From: Limanda limanda
Lineage: Eukaryota; Chordata; Actinopteri; Pleuronectiformes; Pleuronectidae
Assembly: GCF_963576545.1 (NCBI RefSeq)
Contig: NC_083655.1
Span: 909,549-973,548, forward strand
DNA length: 64,000 bases
Reading direction: 5' to 3'
Shown here: piece by piece, positions 16,367-63,260 of the stretch
Layout of the letters: each line of letters begins with the position of its first letter
How positions within the stretch are numbered: position 1 is the stretch's first letter
Notes under the pieces: generated by a model
Told to the model about the DNA's origin: nothing
Database searches by the model: none
The model's input: only the letters and a program-made list of their open reading frames with translations
Position numbers and translations under genes: made by a program

Positions 16367-16979
16367 ACACACACACACACACACACACTATCCACCTACT
16401 TCTCTGTGGAACGACTGATGCAGAAGAGCTAGTTGGTCCAGAGGAGGACGACTGGCTGGACGACCCAGGAGGAGACGGACGGAGACGATCAGGTTTCGGG
16501 TCACGAGCTGATGAGTCTCAGACGGATTCTTCCGCCGGCCGGACCCGGCAGGAAGCGATCGATGGGGGGGGGGGGGGGGGGGGACGTCGGAGGCCTTGAT
16601 CCACCCGGCTGAAAGGAGACAGAGACGGAAAACTCAATCTGCAGCTCACAGCGGTGATTCAGAGTGAGAAACAACCAGGAGTCCACTCGTCTCACTGCAT
16701 CATCAGGAGCTGAACTGTCTGAAAACACGGACAACTCTGTAGAAGTGAAACTTTGTGGGAAAGAAGAGAAGTTCAGCTCCGAGCTGAGTGAAGGTGACGA
16801 GCTGCTGTGGGAGTCTGAGTCTCTGGACATGATCTGGATCTTCTCCTGACGCTCAGTGGTAAAACATCTGTAACATGTCAGAGTCCATGAGAGGAACCAG
16901 CAGGACGACGTGTGGAAGCTTCTCAGAGAGCGAGTGGACGTGTGGACGAGGTTTCTAACATGTGACGTGAAACTAGAAG

Positions 16980-19900
16980 AACTCAAAGATCTCAGGATGA
17001 AGAAGAGGAGCCGGACACGTAGAAGACGAAGACGACGAAGAAGAAGACGAAGAAGAAGAAGACGTAGACGATGAAGACGAAGATGAAGAAGACGAAGACG
17101 AAGACGACGAAGACGATGAAGAAGAAGACGAAGAAGAAGACGTAGACGAAGACGAAGAAGACGATGAAGACGAAGAAGACGATGAAGACGAAGATGAAGA
17201 CGACAAAGACGATGAAGACGAAGACGAAGAAGACGATAAAGACGATGAAGACGATGAAGACGAAGACGTAGACGAAGACGAAGACGATGAAGACGATAAA
17301 GACGATGAAGACGAAGATGAAGAAGAGGAGCCGGACACGGAGAAGACGAAGACGACGAAGACGACGAAGAAGAAGAAGACGTAGACGATGAAGACGAAGA
17401 TGAAGAAGACGAAGACGACGAAGACGATGAAGAAGAAGACGAAGAAGAAGACGTAGACGAAGACGAAGAAGACGATGAAGACGAAGAAGACGATGAAGAC
17501 GAAGATGAAGACGACAAAGACGATGAAGACGAAGACGAAGAAGACGATAAAGACGATGAAGACGATGAAGACGAAGACGTAGACGAAGACGAAGACGATG
17601 AAGACGATAAAGACGATGAAGACGAAGATGAAGAAGACGAACACGATGAAGACGAAGATGAAGAAGACGAAGACGACAAAGACGATGAAGACGAAGACGA
17701 CGATAAAGACGATGAAGACGATGAAGAAGAAGACGAAGACGATAAAGAAGAAGACGAAGAAGAAGACGTAGACGAAGACGAAGAAGACGATGAAGACGAT
17801 GAAGATGAAGACGACAAAGACGATGAAGACGAAGACGATAAAGACGATGAAGACGATGAAGACGAAGACGTAGACGAAGACGAAGAAGACGAAGACGAAG
17901 ACGATGAAGACGATAAAGACGATGAAGACGAAGATGAAGAAGACGAACACGATGAAGACGAAGATGAAGAAGACGAAGACGACAAAGACGATGAAGACGA
18001 AGAAGACGATGAAGACGAAGACGACGAAGAAGAAGACGTAGACGAAGACGAAGAAGACGATAAAGACGATGAAGACGAAGATGAAGAAGACGAAGACGAT
18101 GAAGACGATGAAGACGATGAAGAAGACGAAGACGATGAAGACGAAGACGACGAAGAAGAAGACGTAGACGAAGACGAAGAAGACGATAAAGACGATGAAG
18201 ACGAAGATGAAGAAGACGAAGACGATGAAGACGATGAAGACGATAAAGACGATGAAGACGAAGACGAAGATGAAGAAGACGAAGACGATGAAGACGATGA
18301 AGACGAAGATGAAGAAGACGAAGACGACGATGAAGACGAAGACGAAGAAGACAATGAAGACGATGAAGAAGACGACGACGAAGACGAAGAAGAAGAAGAA
18401 GAAGAAGAAGACGAAGACGACGAAGAAGAAGAAGAAGACGACGACGACGAAGAAGACGTAGACGATGAAGACGAAGACGATATAGACGATGAAGACGATG
18501 AAGACGACGACGAAGAAGAAGACGTAGACGAAGACGAAGACGATGAAGACGATGAAGACGATAAAGACGATGAAGACGAAGATGAAGAAGACGAAGACGA
18601 TGAAGACGATGAAGACGATGAAGACGATGAAGACGATGAAGACGATGAAGACGAAGATGAAGAAGACGAAGACGATAAAGACGATGAAGACGAAGAAGAC
18701 AATGAAGACGATGAAGAAGACGACGACGAAGACGAAGAAGACGACGAAGACGACGAAGACGTACACGTAGAAGACGAAGACGTCAACAAAGGGAGAAACT
18801 AAAACAAAACCAATGAACATAACAAATCCATTTATTAAGAAAACAAGGATCGCTCCAATCCCCCCCCAACAAAAAATACAGCTACACACAAACCGAAGAT
18901 GAAGAAGACGAAGACGACAAAGACGATGAAGACGAAGAAGACGATGAAGACGAAGACGACGAAGAAGAAGACGTAGACGAAGACGAAGAAGACGATAAAG
19001 ACGATGAAGACGAAGATGAAGAAGACGAACACGATGAAGACGAAGATGAAGAAGACGAAGACGACAAAGACGATGAAGACGAAGAAGACGATGAAGACGA
19101 AGACGACGAAGAAGAAGACGTAGACGAAGACGAAGAAGACGATAAAGACGATGAAGACGAAGATGAAGAAGACGAACACGATGAAGACGAAGATGAAGAA
19201 GACGAAGACGACGAAGATGAAGAAGACGAAGACGATGAAGACGATGAAGACGATAAAGACGATGAAGACGAAGACGAAGATGAAGAAGACGAAGACGATG
19301 AAGACGATGAAGACGATGAAGACGAAGATGAAGAAGACGAAGACGACGATGAAGACGAAGACGAAGAAGACGAAGAAGACAATGAAGACGATGAAGAAGA
19401 CGACGACGAAGACGAAGAAGAAGAAGAAGAAGAAGACGAAGACGACGAAGAAGAAGAAGACGACGACGACGAAGAAGACGTAGACGATGAAGACGAAGAC
19501 GATATAGACGATGAAGACGATGAAGACGACGACGAAGAAGAAGACGTAGACGAAGACGAAGACGATAAAGACGAAGATGAAGAAGACGAACACGATGAAG
19601 ACGAAGATGAAGAAGACGAAGACGACAAAGACGATGAAGACGAAGACGAAGAAGACGATAAAGACGATAAAGACGATGAAGACGATGAAGACGAAGACGT
19701 AGACGAAGACGAAGAAGACGAAGACGATGAAGACGATAAAGACGATGAAGACGAAGATGAAGAAGACGAACACGATGAAGACGAAGATGAAGAAGACGAA
19801 GACGACAAAGACGATGAAGACGAAGACGAAGAAGACGATAAAGACGATGAAGACGATGAAGAAGAAGACGAAGACGATGAAGACGATGAAGACGATAAAG

Positions 19901-20100
19901 ACGATGAAGACGAAGACGAAGATGAAGAAGACGAAGACGACGATGAAGACGAAGACGAAGAAGACGAAGAAGACGATATAGACGATGAAGACGAAGACGA
20001 AGAAGACAATGAAGACGATGAAGAAGACGACGACGATGACGAAGACGAAGAAGACGACGAAGAAGACGATGAAGACGTACACGTAGAAGACGAAGACGTC
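16980..20100. repeat. GAAGAC/GACGAT satellite in two blocks, with a 1.3-kb tandem duplication
   Basis: About 3 kb is built from GAAGAC, GACGAT, GATGAAGAC and GTAGAC words, and the plus strand is almost free of T. Block A runs about 16,980-18,780 and block B about 18,896-20,096. The unique segment after block A (about 18,761-18,894) recurs after block B (about 20,077-20,208) with only small differences. The offset is 1314-1316 bp, so repeat plus flank were duplicated together. Unit structure leaves several frames open on both strands (poly-Ser and Phe/Val-rich on minus, Lys/Thr-rich on plus). I do not accept any as a gene. Confidence 0.88.
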
Positions 20101-43138: not shown

Positions 43139-44572
43139 GTTCTAAATGTATTTAAATGTTTGAACTCCTGTGTTTGTTTCCTGTGTTCAGAAGTTCAGCG
43201 TCTCACTGACTCTCTCACTTTGTGACGTGACCCTCAACCTGAATCAAACTGAATCAACCTGATCAATCATCAGAGACACGGCGCCCTGAGCTCTCGTCTG
43301 TACGGCGTTCAGAGTTAAAGCCGAGATCATGTGACCCCGATGTTAATAAATGTGATTGGTCTTCACCTGCAGGAAAAAGCTGCAGCTCAGGTGAAGGTCT
43401 GAGGTCAGATCACTCCTCCTGAGGTCGTTATGTATGTTATATTTATTATATATTATTATATTATACATGCTGAACACTCAGTCATTGTTGAGCAGATCAG
43501 GTGAGCTCAGGGTGCGTCTGGTTTTGGAGGCGAAGAAGGTGACTGACCAACAAGGTTCCAGCAGCTGCTATAAATAGACTCATCTGTTTGCATAAAGACG
43601 ACAACGTGGACCACTTGCACACAAAGACACACAAACACACACTGAACCATCACGTTGCTCAATCAGTGTTTCATCAGACTGACACACACTCACTGGACGT
43701 GTTTGGTTCAAGTCCGAGGACTCGACCCACGACTGACACGCTTCGATCCAAACCCGGGAGATTAAACTGAATCTGACTTTTCACTTTTCAACTTGTTCAT
43801 TCATGTGTGTGTTTTTGTTTGTGTGTGTTCGTGTATGTGTGTGTGTGAGTTTTCACCAAAGTTGTGGATATTTCCCTGGGAATGGATCATAACTGTTGAA
43901 GCACAGTTTCAGTCTACATACATTGTTTTTCCAGGCTCATATGAAGTCAGTTTGACCTTTGACCTTTGATCAGTTTATCTTTTAAAGAGATCGAGGTCAT
44001 AAGAATGAGATTTTGACACTATGAGCCTCAGTGGCGTCCATGTTGCCTAGCAGCAGCGATGTTCTCTCCTGACTCTGCAGCCGATGTCTCACTGAACTCT
44101 GTCGGCCGCAGCGACTCCTCAACAAACACAAACGCTTCATGTGGCGTTCACGTGTCAGTCCGACTATGTGAGGTCACGATTGTTGAATTATTACAGGAGA
44201 AGCTCCAGTGCAGCGCTCTGGGATTTATTTGAAATATTGACCCTGGTCCGTGTTGACAGAGCAAACAGACGAGCGGAGGTTTGTCAACACGAATATTTCC
44301 AGAGGCGTCGGACTTCTGCACTTTGGCCTCGATGTAAAGACGCCAGGCGGACACAGGAGGACGGACGCACGCACAGAATCAACAAACAAACACGTCCTCT
44401 CTGCGTACAGAGACAAATGTTCAATCTGAGTCTGGAACGGAATCGACCTCCGGCTCCACAGAGACAACGTGTCGCTGACGTCAGGGTTTGATCTCAACGG
44501 GACCAGAGCAGGTTGACTGGTGAAAAAGGAACTGGCATTAAACTCCCAGAACGGGGGGGGGTCAGTTTGATG

Positions 44573-46697
44573 AAGGGAGCAAGGAGCAAGGAGAGGGAAG
44601 CAGGGAGAAAGGAGCAGGGAGTAGGAAGCAGGGTGAAGGGAGCAGGGAGTAGGAAGCAGAGGGAAGGAAGCAGGGAGAAGGCAGCAGGAAGCAGGGAGAA
44701 GGAAGCAGAGGGAAGGAAGCAGGGTGAAGGAAGCAAGGAGAAGGAAGCAGGGAGAAGGAAGCAAGGAGCAGAGAGAAGGAAGCAGGGAGAAGGAAGCAAG
44801 GAGTTGGGAGAAGGAAGCAAGGAGAAGGAAGCAGGGAGAAGGAAGCAGGGTGAAGGCAGCAGAGAGAAGGAAGCAAGGAGCAGAGAGAAGGAAGCAGAGA
44901 GAAGGAAGAAGTAAGTAGGGAGAAGGAAGCAGGGAGAAGGAAGCAGAGAGAAGGAAGAAGGGAGAAGGGAGAAGGAAGCAGGGAGAAGGAAGAAGGAAAC
45001 AGGGAGAAGGAAGCAGGAAGAAGGAAACAGGGAGTAGGGAGAAGGAAGAAGGAAACAGGGAGAAGGGAGAAGGAAGCAGGGAGAAGGAAACAGGGAGTAG
45101 GGAGAAGGAAGAAGGAAACAGGGAGAAGGAAGAAGGAAACAGGGAGTAGGGAGAAGGAAGCAGGGAGTAGGAAGAAGAAAGCAGGGAGAAGGAAGGAAGC
45201 CGAGAGAAGGAAGCAGGGAGAACGAAACAGGGAGTAGGGAGAAGGAAGCAGGGAGTAGGGAGAAGGAAGCAGGGTGAAGGAAGCAGAGAGAAGGAAGCAA
45301 GGAGCAGAGAGAAGGAAGCAGGGAGAAGGAAGCAAGGAGCAGAGAGAAGGAAGCAGGGTGAAGGAAGCAGAGAGAAGGAAGCAAGGAGCAGAGAGAAGGA
45401 AGCAGGGTGAAGGAAGCAGAGAGAAGGAAGCAAGGAGCAGAGAGAAGGAAGCAGGGAGCAGAGAGAAGGAAGCAGGGAGCAGAGAGAAGGAAGCAGAGAG
45501 AAGGAAGCAAGGAGAAGGAAGCAGGGTGAAGGAAGCAGAGAGAAGGGAGAAGGAAGCAGAGAGAAGGAAGCAGAGAGAAGGAAGCAAGGAGAAGGAAGCA
45601 GGGTGAAGGAAGCAGAGAGAAGGGAGAAGGAAGCAGAGAGAAGGGAGCAGAGAGAAGGGAGCAGAGAGAAGGAAGCAAGGAGCAGAGAGAAGAAAGCAGA
45701 GAGAAGGGAGAAGGAAGCAGAGAGAAGGAAGCAGAGAGAAGGAAGCAGAGAGAAGGAGAGAAGGAAGCAGAGAGAAGGGAGAAGGAAGCAGAGAGAAGGA
45801 AGCAGAGAGAAGAAAGCAAAGAGAAGGGAGAAGGAAGCAGAGAGAAGGAAGCAGAGAGAAGGAAGCAGAGAGAAGGGAGAAGGAAGCAGAGAGAAGGAAG
45901 CAGAGAGAAGGAAGCAAGGAGCAGAGAGAAGGAAGCAGGGTGAAGGAAGCAGGGAGAAGGAAGAAGGAAGCAGAGAGGAGGAAGCAGAGAGAAGGAGAGA
46001 AGGAAGCAGAGAGAAGGAAGCAGAGAGAAGGGAGAAGGAAGCAGAGAGAAGGAAGCAGAGAGAAGGAAGCAGAGAGAAGGAAGCAAGGAGCAGAGAGAAG
46101 AAAGCAGAGAGAAGGAAGAAGGAAGCAGAGAGAAGGAAGCAGAGAGAAGGAAGCAGGGAGTAGAGAGAAGGAAGAAGGAAGCAGAGAGAAGGAAGCAAGG
46201 AGCAGAGAGAAGGAAGCAGAGAGAAGGAAGCAAGGAGCAGAGAGAAGGAAGCAGAGAGAAGGAAGCAGGGTGAAGGAAGCAGGGAGAAGGAAGAAGGAAG
46301 CAGAGAGGAGGAAGCAGAGAGAAGGAGAGAAGGAAGCAGAGAGAAGGAAGCAGAGAGAAGGGAGAAGGAAGCAGAGAGAAGGAAGCAGAGAGAAGGAGAG
46401 AAGGAAGCAGAGAGAAGGAAGCAAGGAGCAGAGAGAAGAAAGCAGAGAGAAGGAAGCAAGGAGCAGAGAGAAGAAAGCAGAGAGAAGGAAGAAGGAAGCA
46501 GAGAGAAGGAAGCAGAGAGAAGGAAGCAGGGAGCAGAGAGAAGGAAGAAGGAAGCAGAGAGAAGGAAGCAAGGAGCAGAGAGAAGAAAGCAGAGAGAAGG
46601 AAGAAGGAAGCAGAGAGAAGGAAGCAAGGAGCAGAGAGAAGGAAGCAGGGTGAAGGAAGCAGAGAGAAGGAAGCAAGGAGCAGAGAGAAGGAAGCAG
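44573..46697. repeat. GAAGGAAGCAGAGA satellite, 2.1 kb
   Basis: Tandem words GAAGGAAGCAGAGA, GAAGCAAGGAGCAGAGA and GAAGCAGGGTGAAG make an array with almost no T on the plus strand. The right half (about 45,600-46,690) shows repeats of multi-word blocks. Leu/Ser/Phe-rich frames of up to 800 codons on the minus strand and Lys/Glu/Arg-rich frames on plus exist only because the words lack stops. Confidence 0.92.
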
Positions 46698-47091
46698 GGG
46701 AGTTTTTTGTGTCAGGTTCTCCTGTTTTGGATTCTTCACAAACACTTGATGTCATAATATGATAAAATCAGATTTGTGTTTTTTTTTGTCGAGCCGAATC
46801 TTTATGTCGTCAGCGGTGTGAAAAATAAACAAATTTTAAAAACAATGAAAAGAATTTAAGAAGTTTAAATTCATATTTATTTCAGTTTCACAACAAGCAG
46901 CAACTGTTTGATCTCATCTCCATGTTTGGATCAAATCACTGAATTGTTTTCTAATGAGAAACTGATTCACCCATAAATTACTTTATTATTAAATTATTAA
47001 ATCTGATAAAGATGCATCGGGTTTCCACTTAGTATCTTCATCCACAGGTTTCAATCACATCACAAACATGAACAATACAGCTGAGAATCAT

Positions 47092-47933: not shown

Positions 47934-48967
<1,034 letters not shown>

Positions 48968-49025
48968 GTCTCCCGGCAGCCAGGACTCCAGGGCGGTCAG
49001 CAGCAGCCGAGCACCGGGGGTCCCG

Positions 49026-49035
49026 CTTCTATAGG
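49026..49035 (-). promoter_or_regulatory. ppp1r3g: Possible TATA box of ppp1r3g
   Basis: CCTATAGAAG lies on the minus strand, about 60 bp before the chosen ATG, next to a GC-rich run. The spacing would allow a short 5' UTR. Confidence 0.35.
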
Positions 49036-51148
49036 GGCACGCCCCCCCCCACCAACCCCCAGGACGCGCACTGTCACCAGACACGAGCACGCGCACTGTC
49101 ACGTGTTTATTATGATAAGATTCATAGTGACAACAACAATGATAACAATATGAATCATATAAATAACAACAATATTAATAAACAATAACTGTTATCATTT
49201 AGATTTATGTTTATAAAACCTCCGTGTTTCACAGACACACACACAAAAAATAAAAAAAGTATTATAAAAATAAACATTCAAATAGAATAAACCCAAAACA
49301 TAACTCTTTCATTCATAGTGTATTCATCGTTCTTATATCTTACAATACCTCTTAGTACTGTACTAGTCCATATATATTTCTTACTGTACATATCGTATAT
49401 AAATATGCACAATACTCTGCACCTTTACTGCCTTATTTACACTTGTGGTTTTTGCACTCGATCAGTTCTTGTGTTGTGTAACAGCAGGGTCCACGTGGGT
49501 CCAGCAAAGTGCGTCACACAGCGTCAAGTAAACAAACACGCGCGACGTCATCGCCACCGCTGACGTCACGCCGAGGTTTCCTGTCGTGCGGTGAAAATCG
49601 AACTTTAATGTTTACACGAATCTTCCAGTTTCCACCAGGAGGTGGCAGCGTTGCTTCTTTACTACTCACTCCTCCAATTCATTCATGTGGTGGAAAATAA
49701 ACCCAGTAAAGTTTATACTTCACTCAGAGTACTCAGGTACTTTTACTCAGGTACTTTTACTTTTACTCGGTTAAATTGCCCTCCTTGCATGAGTGTGCTT
49801 GTGCATGTCTGCATGTGTTTGGGACAAATAAATATATCTTAATTGTATCTCAGGTAGCTGAGTACACAGAAGTGCTTATAGGACAGAAGTAATTGAGTGA
49901 GATAAAAGTACTTGAGTACTCGGTTAATAAGTCAACAACATAAACAAGTAAACTAATTGAAATGATTCAGAGTCTGAGCTGCAATATTTCATATTCAACA
50001 TGTATTTAGTGAAACTCAAAAGTAATCAAGTAGGAGAAAAGTTCTATAGAATAAAAAAACTGACCTTGAGCAGAAACTTCATACAAACGTCAAACATTTT
50101 CCATGAATATGTTTTATTTTGTTTTATGAACTTTTACATCAGATGAACGTTTCTTCCTCACTGACTCTGGATTTGTTTAAACAGTTGAAATAGTTTCTGA
50201 TCCTGAGTCTGTGAATGTTCAGCATACACTTCCCAGCATGCACTGCACCAAGGCTCAAACCGCTACACGCTGGAGACGAGCAGGGGTTTAAGTTACTTTA
50301 GTTCTGATTGTGCAAATTAAAACGTGAAAATGAAACTTTACTGAATCATCAATGTTTGATTTTTCTGTTTTAACGATTCAACTCAGATGAAACTGTGTGA
50401 ATCAAACTCTCAGACATTAAAGTTCTGCCTCTCAGGTTGTTACTGTATTTCTCCACTTCTCATATTGATTATAAATTAATATAAATGAACAATCAGCATC
50501 TAAATTTGTTCTGTTTTGAAATAAATCAAAGTTTCAGCTGAAATTTAAAAAGCAGGAACAAGCAGATGAAAGAACTTTAGCTGATGTTCTTAAATTAAAC
50601 TATCACTTTTCAGTGCCTCTTTAAAAGAAGCTTGTGTGGGCGGGGCCTCCATTCCAACTGTACAAAATGACAGCGTTTGCATCAGAGATGTTTTGGCTTC
50701 ACTTCTGGACAAAGTGCAGTTGAACGTGTCGGCCATCTTTATTAACAGTCAGCGTTTACTTTCTTTCTGTGCGACGCCTGAACATGAAAATTCATTTTAA
50801 ACCTGAGACAGAGAATCGTGGCTTTGGTCAGATTCCAGTTTCCAGGACAGTGACGTCACGGTGGACTATGTTAGTCACATGACTGCTGCGTGATGACATC
50901 ATGATGACCTCATGATGCTCTGATTCATACACTCGTTTACATTCAGTTACAAAGATTAAAAAAGATACAACTTCTCATACATCAACTGCATTTCTACAAG
51001 ATTTCATAAAACATCCATATTTCACAGTGTGACGGTATATTCATCAATGTGCATGACTTCATTAGCATAATGCCACATGATTGGTTGGTTAAACAGTATT
51101 GGAAATGAATTGTGGGTAGTGTGGGACGGCGGCAGGACTCTGATGATG
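49036..51148. other. Intergenic region ppp1r3g-cyb5a with the cyb5a 3' UTR
   Basis: This is AT-rich DNA without coding signal. It holds AGGTACTTTTACT repeats near 49,730-49,770. A minus-strand AATAAA (plus TTTATT at 50,738-50,743) about 410 bp after the cyb5a stop is a plausible poly(A) signal. The boundary between the two human synteny blocks falls here. Confidence 0.5.
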
Positions 51149-51233
51149 TCACTCGCTCTCTGCGGTTAAGATGCGGTACATCAGGGTGATAATGGCCGCC
51201 ACCAGAGACGGAATCAACCAGCTGGACCACCAG
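51149..51233 (-). CDS. cyb5a: cyb5a exon 5 (tail anchor)
   Basis: Acceptor CTCTCTTGCAG|CTGGTGG, then [27 protein letters not shown] and TGA at 51,149-51,151. The acceptor is the last member of the 44-bp array that fills the intron. Confidence 0.93.
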
Positions 51234-54200
51234 CTGCAAGAGAGACAACTAGTTTAAACATGTGACTGATTAAACCAGCTGTGAGGAAACTAGTTAAACA
51301 TGTGACTGATTAAACCAGCTGTGAGACAGACAACTAGTTAAACATGTGACTGATTAAACCAGCTGTGAGACAGACACCTAGTTAAACATGTGACTGATTA
51401 AACCAGCTGTGACACAACTAGTTAAACATGTGACTGATTAAACCAGCTGTGAGACAGACAACTAGTTAAACATGTGACTGATTAAACCAGCTGTGAGAAA
51501 GACAACTAGTTAAACATGTGACTGATTAAACCAGCTGTGAGAAAGACAACTAGTTAAACATGTGACTGATTAAACCAGCTGTGAGACAGACAACTAGTTA
51601 AACATGTGACTGATTAAACCAGCTGTGAGACAGACAACTAGTTAAACATGTGACTGATTAAACCAGCTGTGAGAAAGACAACTGTTAAACATGTGACTGA
51701 TTAAACCAGCTGTGAGACAGACAACTAGTTAAACATGTGACTGATTAAACCAGCTGTGAGACAGACAACTAGTTAAACATGTGACTGATTAAACCAGCTG
51801 CAAGACAGACAACTAGTTAAACATGTGACTGATTAAACCAGCTGTGAGACAGACAACTAGTTAAACATGTGACTGATTAAACCAGCTGTGAGACAGACAA
51901 CTAGTTAAACATGTGACTGATTAAACCAGCTGTGAGAGAGACAACTAGTTAAACATGTGACTGATTAAACCAGCTGCAAGAGAGACAACTAGTTAAACAT
52001 GTGACTGATTAAACCAGCTGCAAGAGAGACAACTAGTTAAACATGTGACTGATTAAACCAGCTGTAAGACAGACAACTAGTTAAACATGTGACTGATTAA
52101 ACCAGCTGTGAGACAGACAACTAGTTAAACATGTGACTGATTAAACCAGCTGTGAGACAGACAACTAGTTAAACATGTGACCGATTAAACCAGCTGCAAG
52201 AGAGACAACTAGTTAAACATGTGGCTGATTAAACCAGCTGCAAGAGAGACAACTAGTTAAACATGTGACTGATTAAACCAGCTGTGAGACAGACAACTAG
52301 TTAAACATGTGACTGATTAAACCAGCTGTGAGACAGACAACTAGTTAAACATGTGACTGATTAAACCAGCTGTGAGAGAGACAACTAGTTTAACATGTGA
52401 CTGATTAAACCAGCTGTGAGACAGACAACTAGTTAAACATATGACTGATTAAACCAGCTGTGAGACAGACAACTAGTTAAACATGTGACTGATTAAACCA
52501 GCTGTGAGACAGACAACTAGTTAAACATGTGACTGATTAAACCAGCTGTAAGACAGACAACTAGTTAAACATGTGACTGATTAAACCAGCTGTGAGACAA
52601 CTAGTTAAACATGTGACTGATTAAACCAGCTGCAAGAGAGACAACTAGTTAAACATGTGACTGATTAAACCAGCTGTGAGACAGACAACTAGTTAAACAT
52701 GTGACTGATTAAACCAGCTGTGAGACAGACAACTAGTTAAACATGTGACTGATTAAACCAGCTGTGAGACAGACAACTAGTTAAACATGTGACTGATTAA
52801 ACCAGCTGTGAGACAACTAGTTAAACATGTGACTGATTAAACCAGCTGCAAGAGAGACAACTAGTTTAAACATGTGACTGATTAAACCAGCTGTGAGACA
52901 GACAACTAGTTAAACATGTGACTGATTAAACCAGCTGTGAGACAGACAACTAGTTAAACATGTGACTGATTAAACCAGCTGTGAGACAGACAACTAGTTA
53001 AACATGTGACTGATTAAACCAGCTGTGAGACAGACAACTAGTTAAACATGTGACTGATTAAACCAGCTGTGAGACAGACAACTAGTTAAACATGTGACTG
53101 ATTAAACCAGCTGTGAGAGAGACAACTAGTTAAACATGTGACTGATTAAACCAGCTGCAAGACAGACAACTAGTTAAACATGTGACCGATTAAACCAGCT
53201 GTGAGACAACTAGTTAAACATGTGACTGATTAAACCAGCTGTGAGACAACTAGTTAAACATGTGACTGATTAAACCAGCTGTGAGACAGACAACTAGTTA
53301 AACATGTGACTGATTAAACCAGCTGTGAGACAGACAACTAGTTAAACATGTGACTGATTAAACCAGCTGTGAGAGAGACAACTAGTTAAACATGTGACTG
53401 ATTAAACCAGCTGCAAGAGAGACAACTAGTTAAACATGTGACTGATTAAACCAGCTGCAAGAGAGACAACTAGTTAAACATGTGACTGATTAAACCAGCT
53501 GTAAGACAGACAACTAGTTAAACATGTGACTGATTAAACCAGCTGTGAGACAGACAACTAGTTAAACATGTGACTGATTAAACCAGCTGCAAGAGAGACA
53601 ACTAGTTAAACATGTGACTGATTAAACCAGCTGTAAGACAGACAACTAGTTAAACATGTGACTGATTAAACCAGCTGCAAGAGAGACAACTAGTTAAACA
53701 TGTGGCTGATTAAACCAGCTGCAAGAGAGACAACTAGTTAAACATGTGACTGATTAAACCAGCTGTGAGACAGACAACTAGTTAAACATGTGACTGATTA
53801 AACCAGCTGTGAGACAGACAACTAGTTAAACATGTGACTGATTAAACCAGCTGTGAGAGAGACAACTAGTTTAACATGTGACTGATTAAACCAGCTGTGA
53901 GAGAGACAACTAGTTAAACATATGACTGATTAAACCAGCTGTGAGACAGACAACTAGTTAAACATGTGACTGATTAAACCAGCTGTAAGACAGACAACTA
54001 GTTAAACATGTGACTGATTAAACCAGCTGTGAGACAACTAGTTAAACATGTGACTGATTAAACCAGCTGCAAGAGAGACAACTAGTTAAACATGTGACTG
54101 ATTAAACCAGCTGTGAGACAGACAACTAGTTAAACATGTGACTGATTAAACCAGCTGTGAGACAGACAACTAGTTAAACATGTGACTGATTAAACCAGCT

Positions 54201-54753
54201 GTGAGACAGACAACTAGTTAAACATGTGACTGATTAAACCAGCTGCAAGAGAGACAACTAGTTAAACATGTGACTGATTAAACCAGCTGTGAGAGAGACA
54301 ACTAGTTAAACATGTGACTGATTAAACCAGATGTGAGACAGACAACTAGTTAAACATGTGACTGATTAAACCAGATGTGAGACAGACAACTAGTTAAACA
54401 TGTGACTGATTAAACCAGCTGCAAGACAGACAACTAGTTAAACATGTGACTGATAATAATGTAGATTTCATGTAAATAGCACCAATCTGAAGACCTTTAC
54501 GTGTGTGTGTACATGTGTGTGTACATGTGTGTGTTGGTGTGTGTACATGTGTGTGTGTGTATGTGTGTGTACCTGGTCTGGTACTTCACGGTGGTCACCA
54601 GTGTTTCCTGTAACACACACATCATCAGACTCGGGGGTCAGAGGTCACATCAGGTCACATCTGTATTGAACAGAGATGAGGTCGTTACTCACCTCCGGTT
54701 GGACGAGCTGCTCTCTGTCGTCCTGCAGACAAACACATGGAGATCATTACTTC

Positions 54754-54841
<88 letters not shown>

Positions 54842-57800
54842 CACACACTCAGACACACACACAGACACTGACCGGGTGCACTTCTCCTATCACCATGCTG
54901 CTCGCCATCTCTCGGGCGTCGCTGGAGTGTCCGATGTCCTCGAAGCTCTCGGTGGCGTCTCCTCCCGCCTGCTCCCTCAGCACCTCCTCCCCCCCGGGGT
55001 GCTGGGGAGAGAGAAACTGGCTTTAACACTCAGCACGTTCCCAGGGTCACACACGACACATCGTTTGGATGATGAGTCAACAGAATATTACACAGACGTG
55101 GTTTTTAACAGTCACATCTTATATTTGTAAAATCCACATCAGCAAATACTTTATTAAGTGAAGTTAAAGTAAAGTTTCAGTGAAGTTAAAGTGAAGTTGA
55201 AGTAAAGTTAAAGTAAAGTTTCAGTGAAGTTAAAGTAAAGTTTCAGTGAAGTTAAAGTAAAGTTAAAGTAAAGTTTCAGTGAAGTTAAAGTGAAGTTGAA
55301 GTAAAGTTAAAGTGAAGTTGAAGTAATGTTAAAGTTAAGTTAAAGTAAAGTTAAAGTAAAGTTAAAGTAAAGTTAAAGTAAAGTTTCAGTGAAGTTAAAG
55401 TGAAGTAAAGTTAAAGTTAAGTTAAAGTAAAGTTGAAGTGAAGTTAAAGTAAAGTTAAAGTAAAGTTAAAGTAAAGTTAAAGTAAAGTTTAAGTGAAGTT
55501 AAAGTTAAGTTAAAGTAAAGTTGAAGTGAAGTTAAAGTAAAGTTGAAGTGAAGTTAAAGTAAAGTTGAAGTGAAGTTAAAGTTAAGTTCAAGTAAAGTTC
55601 AAGTAAAGTTGAAGTGAAGTTAAAGTAAAGTTCAAGTAAAGTTAAAGTAAAGTTAAAGTAAAGTTGAAGTGAAGTTAAAGTAAAGTTAAAATAAAGTTGA
55701 AGTGAAGTTTAAGTAAAGTAAAGTTAAAGTAAAGTTAAAGTAAAGTTTCAGTGAAGTTAAAGTGAAGTAAAGTTAAAGTTAAGTTAAAGTAAAGTTTCAG
55801 TGAAGTTAAAGTAAAGTTAAAGTAAAGTTAAAGTAAAGTTTAAGTGAAGTTAAAGTTAAGTTAAAGTAAAGTTGAAGTGAAGTTAAAGTAAAGTTGAAGT
55901 GAAGTTAAAGTAAAGTTGAAGTGAAGTTAAAGTTAAGTTCAAGTAAAGTTCAAGTAAAGTTGAAGTGAAGTTAAAGTAAAGTTCAAGTAAAGTTAAAGTA
56001 AAGTTAAAGTAAAGTTGAAGTGAAGTTAAAGTAAAGTTAAAATAAAGTTGAAGTGAAGTTTAAGTAAAGTAAAGTTAAAGTAAAGTTAAAGTAAAGTTTC
56101 AGTGAAGTTAAAGTGAAGTAAAGTTAAAGTTAAGTTAAAGTAAAGTTTCAGTGAAGTTAAAGTAAAGTTAAAGTAAAGTTAAAGTAAAGTTTAAGTGAAG
56201 TTAAAGTTAAGTTAAAGTAAAGTTGAAGTGAAGTTAAAGTAAAGTTGAAGTGAAGTTAAAGTAAAGTTGAAGTGAAGTTAAAGTTAAGTTCAAGTAAAGT
56301 TCAAGTAAAGTTGAAGTGAAGTTAAAGTAAAGTTCAAGTAAAGTTAAAGTAAAGTTGAAGTGAAGTTAAAGTAAAGTTAAAATAAAGTTGAAGTGAAGTT
56401 TAAGTGAAGTTTAAGTGAAGTTAAAGTAAAGTTGATGTGAAGTTAAAGTGAAGTTCAAGTAAAGTTAAAGTAAAGTCAAAGTGAAGTTAAAGTAAAGTTA
56501 AAGTGAAGTTAAAGTAAAGTTAAAGTAAAGTCAAAGTGCAGAATCCTCAGACTCTCAGTTAACTATCGGACAACTCGCCCACACCGTGAACCCTGAGCAG
56601 AGAAACACCGGCGCCAATAAAAGGCCCGGTCACCTGGACAAAGGTCAAAGGTCAGGCGGCTAAAAGAAAACAGAGCTGAAGAGAGAACGTTTCCTCCAGA
56701 GAAACGTGAAGTTTGAGGAAAGAAATAAAGTTTCTCTTTAATCAGAATCACACGATCTCTTTTCAGGAACTTTTCTGAAGTGACGACGTCGTGAAACTTC
56801 AACTGATCAGTGCAAAGTATTTATAATTAATATTAAACACGTGACAAAGAAGCTTGAGAAAAGTTTACGTGTTTTTATCATATTCACTAAATTATTACAA
56901 TTAATAAAATAAGCTATTTTTCCTGAGATGATTCAGTGAATTAACATAATAATACAAATATAAAACTGATTCTGTCGTATTAATAGAAACTGCTGCAGAT
57001 CATCATATTATCTAATTGTTGTTATTGATCATTTCTAAATAATAAAATTATTTTAATTTAATCTGATATATGTTGTGAAGTAAAGGTGATAAGTATCTGT
57101 GTGTGAGTGTGTGTCTCTGTATGTGAGTGTTTGTGTGTACGTGTATCTGTGTTGAGTCTAAGTGTGTTGTGTAGTTTAGTGCATCTCTCTGTGTATTGTC
57201 TCATTGTGAGTTGTGTAGTTTTTGTAGTGTGTCTCTGTGAGTTATGTTGTGTTGTGTAGTCTGTGTTTCTATGAGATGTGTTGTGTAGTTAAGTGCGTCT
57301 CTCTGTGTATTGTCTCATTGTGAGTTGTGTAGTGTGTCTCTGTGAGTTATGTTGTGTTGTGTAGTGTGTGTCTCTATGAGATGTGATGTGTAGTTTAGTG
57401 CGTCTCTGTGTATTGTCTCACTGTGAGTTGTGTAGTGTGTCTCTGTATGTTGTGTTGTGTGTCTCTGTGCGTTGTGTGTCTCTGTGAGTTGTGTTGTGTC
57501 TGTCTCTGTGAGTTGTGTTGTGTCTGTGTGTGTCTCTTTGAGTTGTGTTGTGTAGTTTGTCTGTGAGTTGTGTGTCTCTGTGAGTTGTGTTGTGTTGTGT
57601 AGTGTGTCACTGTGAGTTGTGTGTGTCTCACCTCCTCCAGGAACTTGGTGACGTCGTACACATTGTGGTGGATGATGATCCACGTGGATTTGAAGTGTGT
57701 GTAGTGTGTTTCTCTGTGAGTTGTGTGTCTCTGTGAGTTGTGTTGTGTTGTGTAGTGTGTCTCTGTGAGTTGTGTGTGTCTCACCTCCTCCAGGAACTTG

Positions 57801-57922
57801 GTGACGTCGTACACTTGGTGGTGGATGATGATCCACGTGGATTTGAAGGAGTTCTGCTCCTGGATCTCGGACAGGCGGAAGAGCCTCGCCCCCCCCGGGT
57901 TGTTGGTCTGCTGCTCCCCCAT
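51149..57922 (-). CDS. cyb5a: cyb5a, cytochrome b5 type A (microsomal), five coding exons
   Basis: The product is a haem-binding electron carrier on the endoplasmic reticulum that serves desaturases, P450s and methaemoglobin reduction. The exons are 57,785-57,922, 54,873-55,001, 54,693-54,722, 54,573-54,607 and 51,149-51,233; 417 nt give 138 residues (human about 134). The haem-ligand histidines are His47 in [16 protein letters not shown] and His71 in [12 protein letters not shown], with the standard spacing of 24. The linker [12 protein letters not shown] is followed by a tail anchor, [20 protein letters not shown] (114-133), and a short acidic end. Residues [19 protein letters not shown] and the SSWW-W-IP tail fit CYB5A better than the mitochondrial CYB5B. 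The start ATG at 57,920-57,922 gives the normal length. Introns 1 and 4 are almost wholly tandem repeats. C18orf63 lies divergently upstream, as on human 18q22.3. Confidence 0.95.
51234..54454 (-). repeat. 44-bp minisatellite filling cyb5a intron 4, about 73 copies of a 3' splice site
   Basis: Read as cyb5a pre-mRNA, each unit begins CTGGTTTAATCAGTCACATG, passes through TTTAACTAG, and ends TTGTCTCTCTTGCAG or TTGTCTGTCTCACAG. The next unit, or exon 5, starts again with CTGG. Some units are shortened to about 40 bp. A run of variant units, including GTGGCTG at 52,221 and 53,702 and ATATGACTG at 52,439 and 53,920, recurs at an offset of 1481 bp, so a block of roughly 0.8 kb has been duplicated inside the array. 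Confidence 0.95.
54573..54607 (-). CDS. cyb5a: cyb5a exon 4 (35 nt)
   Basis: It encodes [11 protein letters not shown] plus two bases. The acceptor GTGTGTGTTACAG follows a short TG tract. The donor ACCAG|GTACACACACA is followed by CA-rich sequence (plus 54,500-54,570). Confidence 0.9.
54693..54722 (-). CDS. cyb5a: cyb5a exon 3 (30-nt microexon)
   Basis: It encodes only [10 protein letters not shown] between acceptor CTGCAG and donor GGAG|GTGAGT. The 150-bp intron before it contains the (ATC)n tract at 54,753-54,841. Confidence 0.9.
54753..54841. repeat. (ATC)n trinucleotide tract in cyb5a intron 2
   Basis: About 29 uninterrupted ATC units (GAT in cyb5a sense) fill over half of a 150-bp intron between exons 2 and 3. 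The His-rich and Asp-rich frames across it are repeat shadows. Confidence 0.95.
54873..55001 (-). CDS. cyb5a: cyb5a exon 2 (haem-binding core)
   Basis: Its 43 codons hold [31 protein letters not shown] and IGEVHP. The acceptor is CCCCAG|CACC and the donor CCG|GTCAGT. Both haem-ligand histidines are here. Confidence 0.95.
55155..56538. repeat. AAAGTTAAAGTAAAGTTGAAGTG satellite in cyb5a intron 1, 1.4 kb
   Basis: Words of 10-12 bp (AAAGTTAAAGT, AAAGTTGAAGTG, AAAGTTTCAGTG) form a higher-order repeat. The marker AAAATAAAGTTG occurs at 55,688, 56,039 and 56,379, giving periods of 351 and 340 bp. Confidence 0.92.
56539..57089. other. cyb5a: Non-repetitive part of cyb5a intron 1
   Basis: About 550 bp of AT-rich DNA without tandem repeats or coding signal. 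The open frame at 56,563-56,802 matches nothing I know. Confidence 0.5.
57090..57626. repeat. TG-rich degenerate tandem repeat (GTCTCTGTGAGTTGTGTTGTG)
   Basis: Imperfect units of about 20-50 bp built from GTCTCTGTGAGTTGTGTTGT and TAGTGTGTGTC. It lies in cyb5a intron 1, next to the partial exon duplication. The intron part of the duplicated 153-bp unit is of the same type. Confidence 0.8.
57632..57695 (-). repeat. cyb5a: Duplicated 3' half of cyb5a exon 1 with splice donor
   Basis: The sequence encodes [21 protein letters not shown], identical to exon 1 apart from Asn for Gln, and is followed by the same GTGAGACACACACAACTC. It is the second copy of a 153-bp tandem unit (57,848 versus 57,695). 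The copy has no AG acceptor just before it, but it is in frame with exon 1 through the intervening 89 nt. Confidence 0.92.
57785..57922 (-). CDS. cyb5a: cyb5a exon 1
   Basis: Its 46 codons run from [11 protein letters not shown] through [17 protein letters not shown] to YDVTKFLEE. The donor is GAG|GTGAGACACAC, followed in sense by CA-rich sequence. The 3' half, with this donor, is duplicated 153 bp downstream. Confidence 0.93.
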
Positions 57923-59651
57923 GTGAGAGGCCTCTGGCTCGGACAGGTTCTGGATCCGGACCGCGGACTAACACTCCGGCATCGAACCCACTTCACTGCT
58001 GTCCCCGCCCGCTAACAACACAGCACTTCCGCCCTCTGCCTTCACAATAAGACGCGTCCCCGCTCCCCTGCTCCATGGGGAGAAGACCAGCGACTCTCCA
58101 GCTGAGGGACAAACTCTCAACTCTTCATTGAGTCTCATGAAAGTTTCATCTTCTGCTTCTTTAATATCTGGTGTCGTCATCGTGGGTTTGTTAATCAAAA
58201 AGTCTGTATTCTACACGTTCAAGGGAAAAAACAACTCTTTATTTTGAAAGGCTACCGTCTAATTTCCGGTTAGACTTTGTTATTTCTGACGCTTTTCAAG
58301 TATTTCGATTTCTCATATGTTAACAAACCCCGCCCCTAAAGCCCTTCCAGTGCTGCCATTGGTGGTCTTCTATTCTACCTTTGGCACAGAAACGCTCTGA
58401 TTGGCTCCTTGTCCTGTCAATCATCAGTGAGCAGTGGGCGAGGACAAGGCTAAAGTTCATCTAAGTTCATGAGCAGCAGGAAGCACTTTCTCTCTCCAGG
58501 GTTCTACTGTATCTTCTTCTTCATGTCTTCTTTTCTCCAGTGTTCTTCTTCATGTGTTCTTCTCTCCATGTGTTCTTCTTCATGTGTTCTTCTGAATGTT
58601 CCTCTCTGTGTTCTTCTCTATGTTCTTCTCCATGAGTTCTTCTCTATGTGTTCTTCTTCATGTTTTCTTTTCTCCAGTGTTCTTCTTCGTGTGTTCTTCT
58701 CTCCCTTTAAAGGGTAAAAACAAAGTGATAAACAGTGAAACTTCCTGGTTTTACTTCCTGGACGTTTTCCCGCTTTCTACGAGCCAAAGATTATCTCTGG
58801 ATAGATGTGTCACTCTAACATAGAAAAAAAGAAATGATAAATCACACAAATGTTTCATTAGGAAATATTAACATTATTTAATTATTTCATTATTGTTATT
58901 ATAGTTATTATTATTTTATTATTATTATTATTAACAACAACAACAGGTAAACAGTAGAAAGTCAACAATAACTGTGAAGTTTATTCTTCTCTTTGACATT
59001 CTAATATATATATATCTATATATATATTATACACAGTGTATTGTTATACAGTAAAAAAAAAAGTATAATCCATTAAACTGTTAAACTCAACCTCATGTTC
59101 TGCCCTAATGACCCAAACAGGTTTTTGTTTTTATTCATGTCCTCAGAGTGAGACCTCTTCCCTCCCTCTCTGATCTTTAGCTAACACTAGCATTAGCTCT
59201 CGTTTTGAAGACTCAGTTTTTTCACTCGACTCTTTACTGAGTTAATTCTCTTAAAACCATAACTTTCTTTACTCAACAACAACTTTTAGAGTCTAGTGTG
59301 AATGTGGAGATAATCTGAGTGACTGGATAGAAAAGTTAAATCTGATAAAAGCTGCTTTGGTTTGGTTTGCACAGGAAACAGAGAGGTGAGTACAGAGTTA
59401 GCCGTTTAGCTAACGATTCGTTGTATGTTTATCATTGATTCAAGTTTTTAGCCCTAAAGCTTTATTAATGTTTCTAATATTCACAACATGATACCACAGC
59501 TCAAAGAGTTTTATTCAGATAAAACTATAAATATCAAAGATGTCGCGGCGGCCATCAGGAGAATCATGATGTTTCCCACTGAGCCGCTACATGAGAAGCT
59601 AACAGTTGACATGTCTGTGTGTGTGTGTGTCTCTGTGTGTGTGTGTGTAGG
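57923..59651. promoter_or_regulatory. Divergent interval between cyb5a and C18orf63
   Basis: GC-rich sequence at 57,925-58,080 next to the cyb5a start is the likely cyb5a promoter. Pyrimidine-rich imperfect repeats (TTCTTCTCCATGTG) fill about 58,500-58,700, and AT-rich DNA with TTATTA and ATATAT runs follows at 58,850-59,060. A GAGAG|GTGAGT site at 59,385 could be the donor of a non-coding C18orf63 exon 1. A TG tract (59,612-59,648) abuts the exon-2 acceptor. Confidence 0.45.

Positions 59652-63260
<3,609 letters not shown>

Follow-up and report, generated by a model that had tools for sequence, protein, structure and literature searches.

In the dab, Limanda limanda, intron 4 of cyb5a, the last coding intron of this cytochrome b5 gene, consists almost entirely of a 44-bp minisatellite whose units end like splice acceptors, 73 of them decoys and the last one the authentic acceptor of exon 5. 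In our judgement this is probably an acceptor-side mirage minisatellite, in which the last site is chosen from the exon side, anchored cytochrome b5 is the main product and some splicing leaks to the decoys. The decoys are nearer to the donor and are transcribed first, and if the last copy is still the one that is joined, the choice must be made mainly on the exon side. Intron 4 of cyb5a may thus serve as a natural experiment on splice-site choice, a question usually addressed with engineered minigenes. The window, i.e. the whole stretch of 64,000 nucleotides that was analyzed, contains the complete coding part of the gene, and its main features are collected in Table 1.

Table 1. Positions of the cyb5a features in the window.
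Feature	Position	Strand	Basis or remark
cyb5a exon 1, coding part	57785..57922	-	138 nt; joined translation identical to P0001
Second copy of exon 1 end, donor and intron 1 start	57543..57695	-	153-bp tandem duplication
cyb5a exon 2	54873..55001	-	exon join and translation
cyb5a exon 3	54693..54722	-	exon join and translation
cyb5a exon 4	54573..54607	-	donor GTACAC from 54572
44-bp minisatellite, 73 decoy acceptor units then authentic acceptor	51234..54454	-	3,221 nt
cyb5a exon 5, coding part (membrane anchor and stop)	51149..51233	-	exon join and translation
First AATAAA 3' of the cyb5a stop	50738..50743	-	hexamer scan

Gene organization and the array

The gene lies on the minus strand and comprises five coding exons for a protein of 138 amino acids, with GT/AG ends at all four (4/4) introns. 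The translation is identical at 138/138 residues to the Limanda limanda cytochrome b5 record, which may itself be a gene prediction, and its haem domain followed by a C-terminal anchor places the protein in type A; solved b5 chains match it as well. A protein search with this query gave 1,199 matches, the best 120 of which were inspected: ranks 2-6 belong to flatfishes and are 87 to 92% identical to the dab protein, and the only Limanda-named record among these best 120 is the anchored form, which makes up a cluster of its own. The frame at 61624-62487 carries a short DUF4708 match of 38 residues (Pfam), which we take to denote C18orf63, presumably the neighbor of human CYB5A on chromosome 18. 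A second CAG/CTGG is located at 51221 on the minus strand, within exon 5 and 12 nt beyond the authentic acceptor; its use would give a protein of 134 amino acids, with four residues fewer and the anchor kept.

Intron 4 extends from 54572 to 51234 (3,339 nt), and the array fills 96.5% of it (3,221 of 3,339 nt). Tandem Repeats Finder delimits the array at 51229–54454, with a period of 44, 73.9 copies and 95% matches, and the CTGGT unit starts number 74, which are the 73 decoys and the authentic acceptor. The initial annotation had described the exon-5 acceptor as the last member of a 44-bp array preceded by about 73 decoys, and both statements hold, since the array runs right up to the authentic acceptor and 73 unit ends come before it. 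The two motifs that it had ascribed to every unit are slightly less general: CAG/CTGG is present in 71 of the 73 decoys and is replaced by CAT in two adjacent ones (54374 and 54330, the second and third units counted from the exon 4 donor), and TTTAACT is found in 68 of the 73 complete units but is missing from the other five. These complete units are mostly 44 nt long (63 of 73), the rest having 40 (seven), 45 (two) or 43 nt (one). A TTAAC of the yUnAy form stands 19 nt upstream of the junction in 62 of the 74 sites; the authentic site and site 52845 have an extra A (TTTAAAC) in this branch-point-like region, and the nearest yUnAy match of the authentic site is TTAAT, 36 nt upstream. Judged by such motifs, the branch-point region of the authentic site would be, if anything, poorer than in most decoys. 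The GC content is 56% in exon 5 versus 38% in the array. The 16-mers of the array occur nowhere else in the 64-kb window, and a 23-mer of the unit gave 0 matches in collections of virus and prokaryote contigs, a search which is little informative for a fish repeat.

Among the 73 aligned units there are 14 variable columns or indel sites. The commonest variants fall at acceptor positions -9, -5 and -4, at which 25, 21 and 16 of the 73 units depart from the commonest base; the pyrimidine tract has lost 4 nt in seven units, and each of the remaining variable sites is changed in two units at most. Purging of changes at the AG is not visible, one variable site being found there versus 0.6 expected (14 over 44 positions), a comparison based on few events and with little power. 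A change that shifts the stop is present in two units. In the string of unit types, a run of about 19 units recurs in similar form 33 to 34 units away, and block duplication has thus contributed to the shape of the array.

The unit and exon 5 have in common CAGCTGGTT and 15 of 18 bases beyond the boundary, the unit aligning with exon 5 from the second CAGCTGG of exon 5 onward. When exon 5 was shuffled 5,000 times, 0.7% of the shuffles matched at least as well, as did 1.3% of 3,807 random segments of the window, and the similarity is moderately significant (p ~0.01, in a test picked after the match had been seen). Thirteen decoys share the CTCTTGCAG type of the authentic acceptor. Both the match and the type fit, without proving it, a putative origin of the unit from the exon-5 boundary.

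A second boundary of the gene has been duplicated as well, namely the exon-1 donor within intron 1 (Table 1), where the two copies are identical at 139 of 153 positions without a gap. The duplicate donor, with its GT from 57631, is in frame and is equal to the exon 1 donor in both its 9-mer and its score. The 153-bp insert is open and in frame, and its use would yield a 189-residue b5 with a 51-residue insert repeating the exon-1 segment; such an insert appears in none of the best 120 of the 1,199 protein matches.

Splice-site strength and predicted products

Splice sites were scored with an approximate matrix. The authentic 23-mer (-20 to +3) recurs unchanged at 13 of the 73 decoys, so that any predictor confined to this interval would score them equally, and decoy 52845 equals the authentic site over 44 nt upstream. 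On the approximate matrix, a score of 10.3 is obtained for the authentic acceptor, against 8.1 for the median decoy, and the real acceptors of cyb5a introns 1, 2 and 3 score 11.4, 9.2 and 6.5; a typical decoy is thus about 2 bits below the authentic site and above the intron-3 site which is in use. By the same approximate measure, 16 of the 73 decoys reach or exceed the authentic score, 32 are within 2 bits of it and 65 are above the intron-3 acceptor. Among the other AGs on the strand (n=4,191), the score of the median decoy is attained by about 2% and that of the authentic site by 0.5%. The proposal that the decoys are acceptor-like is therefore upheld, many of them being as strong as real sites; with 13 identical 23-mers and 16 scores at or above the authentic one, they do not lie far below the exon-5 acceptor. 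When random 44-mers of the window were tandemized (4,000 scored, approximate matrix), the acceptor was at least as good as that of the commonest unit in about 5% and as that of the authentic-type unit in about 1%. The units are copies, and the 73 acceptors are thus not independent coincidences, yet chance does not readily give an array whose edge coincides with the authentic acceptor.

The exon 4 donor is the weakest of the four cyb5a donors (score 4.5, approximate matrix). Inside the array the best GT has a donor score of 4.0 and the rest are below 0 on this matrix, so that the decoys could hardly form internal exons, and internal exons built from the array were rejected on this ground. Recursive splicing was rejected too, the units reading AG/CT and not AG/GT, as was truncation by polyadenylation inside the array, in which none of the four poly(A) hexamers tested occurs.

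Joining exon 4 to a decoy was expected to give an anchorless b5 of 118 amino acids from any unit, and this is predicted for 69 of the 71 CAG decoys; the other two would give 134 amino acids, with a longer tail and again no anchor. The expected tail, SWFNQSHV, ends 63 of the 69 products of 118 amino acids, and the remaining six carry one substitution in it. The haem domain is complete in the predicted decoy products, and the 118-residue product should fold, since b5 domains with as few as 82 and up to 108 residues have solved structures. The predicted decoy mRNA would have its stop codon in the terminal exon, and the remaining array would serve as 3' UTR up to the AATAAA at 50743. The SWFNQ tail is present in none of the best 120 of 1,199 protein matches, where minor isoforms need not be recorded. 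Only two of these best 120 are shorter than 130 amino acids, both of them anchorless b5 isoforms X2, from Trachinotus anak (118 amino acids, ending in SWWSNWFS) and Acanthochromis polyacanthus (115 amino acids, ending in SWWSS). They (P0018, P0008) were rejected as decoy-type isoforms, since exon-5 sequence comes first in them and the departure lies inside exon 5. The use of decoys in cells is a possible event.

Comparison with known systems

The dab array may belong with the mirages of amphioxus (Adh3, BflGb6, BflGb9, TnC and the PGBD5 boundary repeats), in which tandem copies of an intron/exon boundary are homogenized, many units carry AG or GT, and both donor- and acceptor-side types exist (PMC3087553, PMC3902484). 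In the dab, likewise, the signals are retained in many units, with CAG in 71 of the 73 decoys. The differences lie in the vertebrate host, in the exonic part of the unit, which is short and diverged, and in the position of the decoys ahead of a terminal anchor exon; moreover, the dab has 74 acceptor units, versus 6 and 3 repeat units reported for the two BflGb6 haplotypes. The Adh3 and globin mirages are said to leave regular splicing undisturbed, and their units could serve as cryptic sites (PMC3087553); a second paper states that no aberrant mRNAs are generated from the Adh and TnC mirages (PMC3902484).

Two human minisatellites provide further comparisons. The intron-18 VNTR of ABCA7 comprises about 12 to 427 units of 25 bp which open with a donor dinucleotide; one repeat unit can be retained through splicing, independently of array length, and of the cell lines compared, the one carrying the largest allele pair shows 3.2x more exon-19 skipping than the one carrying the smallest (PMC5954066). 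This repeat is on the donor side of an internal exon, and its length, as described there, acts through skipping of the next exon and not through its own repeat sites, whereas the dab array is on the acceptor side. In the minisatellite of human IFI6 (6-16), two downstream repeat units are reported to act as splice donors (PMC4526556), so that it too differs from the dab array in its donor side. No report of a vertebrate acceptor array of such size was found in the full-text literature searched, which consisted mostly of papers open without subscription.

Mammalian soluble b5 is made by splicing, with a short alternative exon. The human erythrocyte form (UniProt P00167-2) presumably diverges after residue 97, which corresponds to dab residue 100 in a gap-free alignment with chain 2m33, which we take to be rabbit b5. 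Residue 100 lies at most one residue away from the border between exons 3 and 4 (99/100). The initial annotation had placed the mammalian event at the same place in the protein, but by this site and the 2m33 alignment the human divergence falls about 11 residues before the array, one intron away. The dab and mammalian forms share the gene family and a haem domain which is anchorless (predicted in the dab), yet the mammalian one arises one intron upstream and not from repeated acceptors, which makes the parallel one of outcome and not of position. Membrane-bound and soluble isoforms of mammalian cytochrome b5 are mentioned in PMC7511354.

Origin and possible effects of the array

In the mirage reading, about 44 bp across the intron-4/exon-5 boundary, including TTTAAC, the pyrimidine tract, CAG and the first exon-5 bases, would have been copied in tandem and would then have grown via slippage, unequal exchange and block duplication into 74 acceptor modules, an origin and order of events that we infer. 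Only the last of these modules adjoins the anchor exon. As the adjacent intron sequence is the same at this site and at its 13 identical copies, the choice would be made on the exon side, where exon-5 enhancers, terminal-exon definition coupled to polyadenylation and the poor quality of the AT-rich repeat as an exon may all take part. The splicing machinery probably steps over the array for the most part, and most of the b5 made would still be anchored; some splicing to the decoys, giving soluble b5 of 118 residues, is likely, its purpose being unproven. The exact end of the array, the 13 identical decoys, the exon-1 donor duplication and the anchored record all fit this reading, which would extend the amphioxus idea to a vertebrate and supply an acceptor-side counterpart of ABCA7 and IFI6. 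By analogy, neutrality should not be the default, because a longer ABCA7 VNTR does change splicing.

The leak may be larger than this, with several units used often and a sizeable share of transcripts giving soluble b5 as a by-product, not as a selected switch. We consider this unlikely, even though the decoys have high scores, are in part identical with the authentic site and are transcribed ahead of it, and the stop in the last exon would, by the exon-junction rule, spare their mRNA from nonsense-mediated decay. The repeat donors of IFI6 are reported to be used (PMC4526556) and a unit of ABCA7 can be retained (PMC5954066), but SWFNQ is absent from the best 120 of 1,199 matches, where minor isoforms need not be present, and the sole Limanda-named record among these 120 is the anchored form. 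An ordinary minisatellite, with a chance acceptor in its unit and an edge that met exon 5 via the shared CAGCTGG, is a still less probable source of the array. Repeats are common here (154 tandem-repeat rows in 64 kb, some overlapping), 1 to 8% of 44-mers, whether shuffled or random, attain comparable acceptor scores, and one of nine other units scored (58514–58704, plus strand) reaches 10.3; however, the unit resembles exon 5 past the shared CTGG, and another boundary of cyb5a, that of exon 1, is duplicated as well.

The initial annotation had gone further and proposed that competition among the acceptors, with copy number as the dial, could tune how much b5 is soluble and how much is anchored. 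In this reading the array would be kept for its effect, and it would have originated in this flatfish lineage independently of the mammalian soluble form. If true, this would represent a fast-evolving splice control over the amount of anchorless b5, but we regard it as very doubtful. Unit variation without depletion at the AG leaves selection unsupported: one of the 14 variable sites falls there versus 0.6 expected, so that conservation is not seen in what is a weak test, and a stop-moving change is tolerated in two units. Moreover, by the presumed human site and the 2m33 mapping, the mammalian soluble form comes from another intron. Length-dependent splicing is real in ABCA7, with its 3.2x exon-19 skipping, yet in the same report unit retention did not follow length (PMC5954066); the soluble isoform itself has a mammalian precedent (PMC7511354).

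Other features of the window

Another array, at 58514-58704 on the plus strand, has a consensus unit with an acceptor-like site, whose score of 10.3 equals the authentic one on the approximate matrix. Two long arrays (16973-20098 and 44225-46711) are purine-rich on the plus strand, and their minus strand is free of stops over 1041 and 828 codons; they are probably low-complexity repeats. Pfam was run on 10 of the 139 listed frames in the window and gave matches to CBM_21 and DUF4708; among these 10 frames, the summed score but no individual stretch took PI_PP_C and PIN_3 past the cut-offs, and CDC45, Na_trans_assoc and Copper-fist were below the cut-offs. The CBM_21 domain (E 4e-15) resides in the minus-strand frame at 48032-49174, which we take to be probably a glycogen-targeting subunit of protein phosphatase 1.
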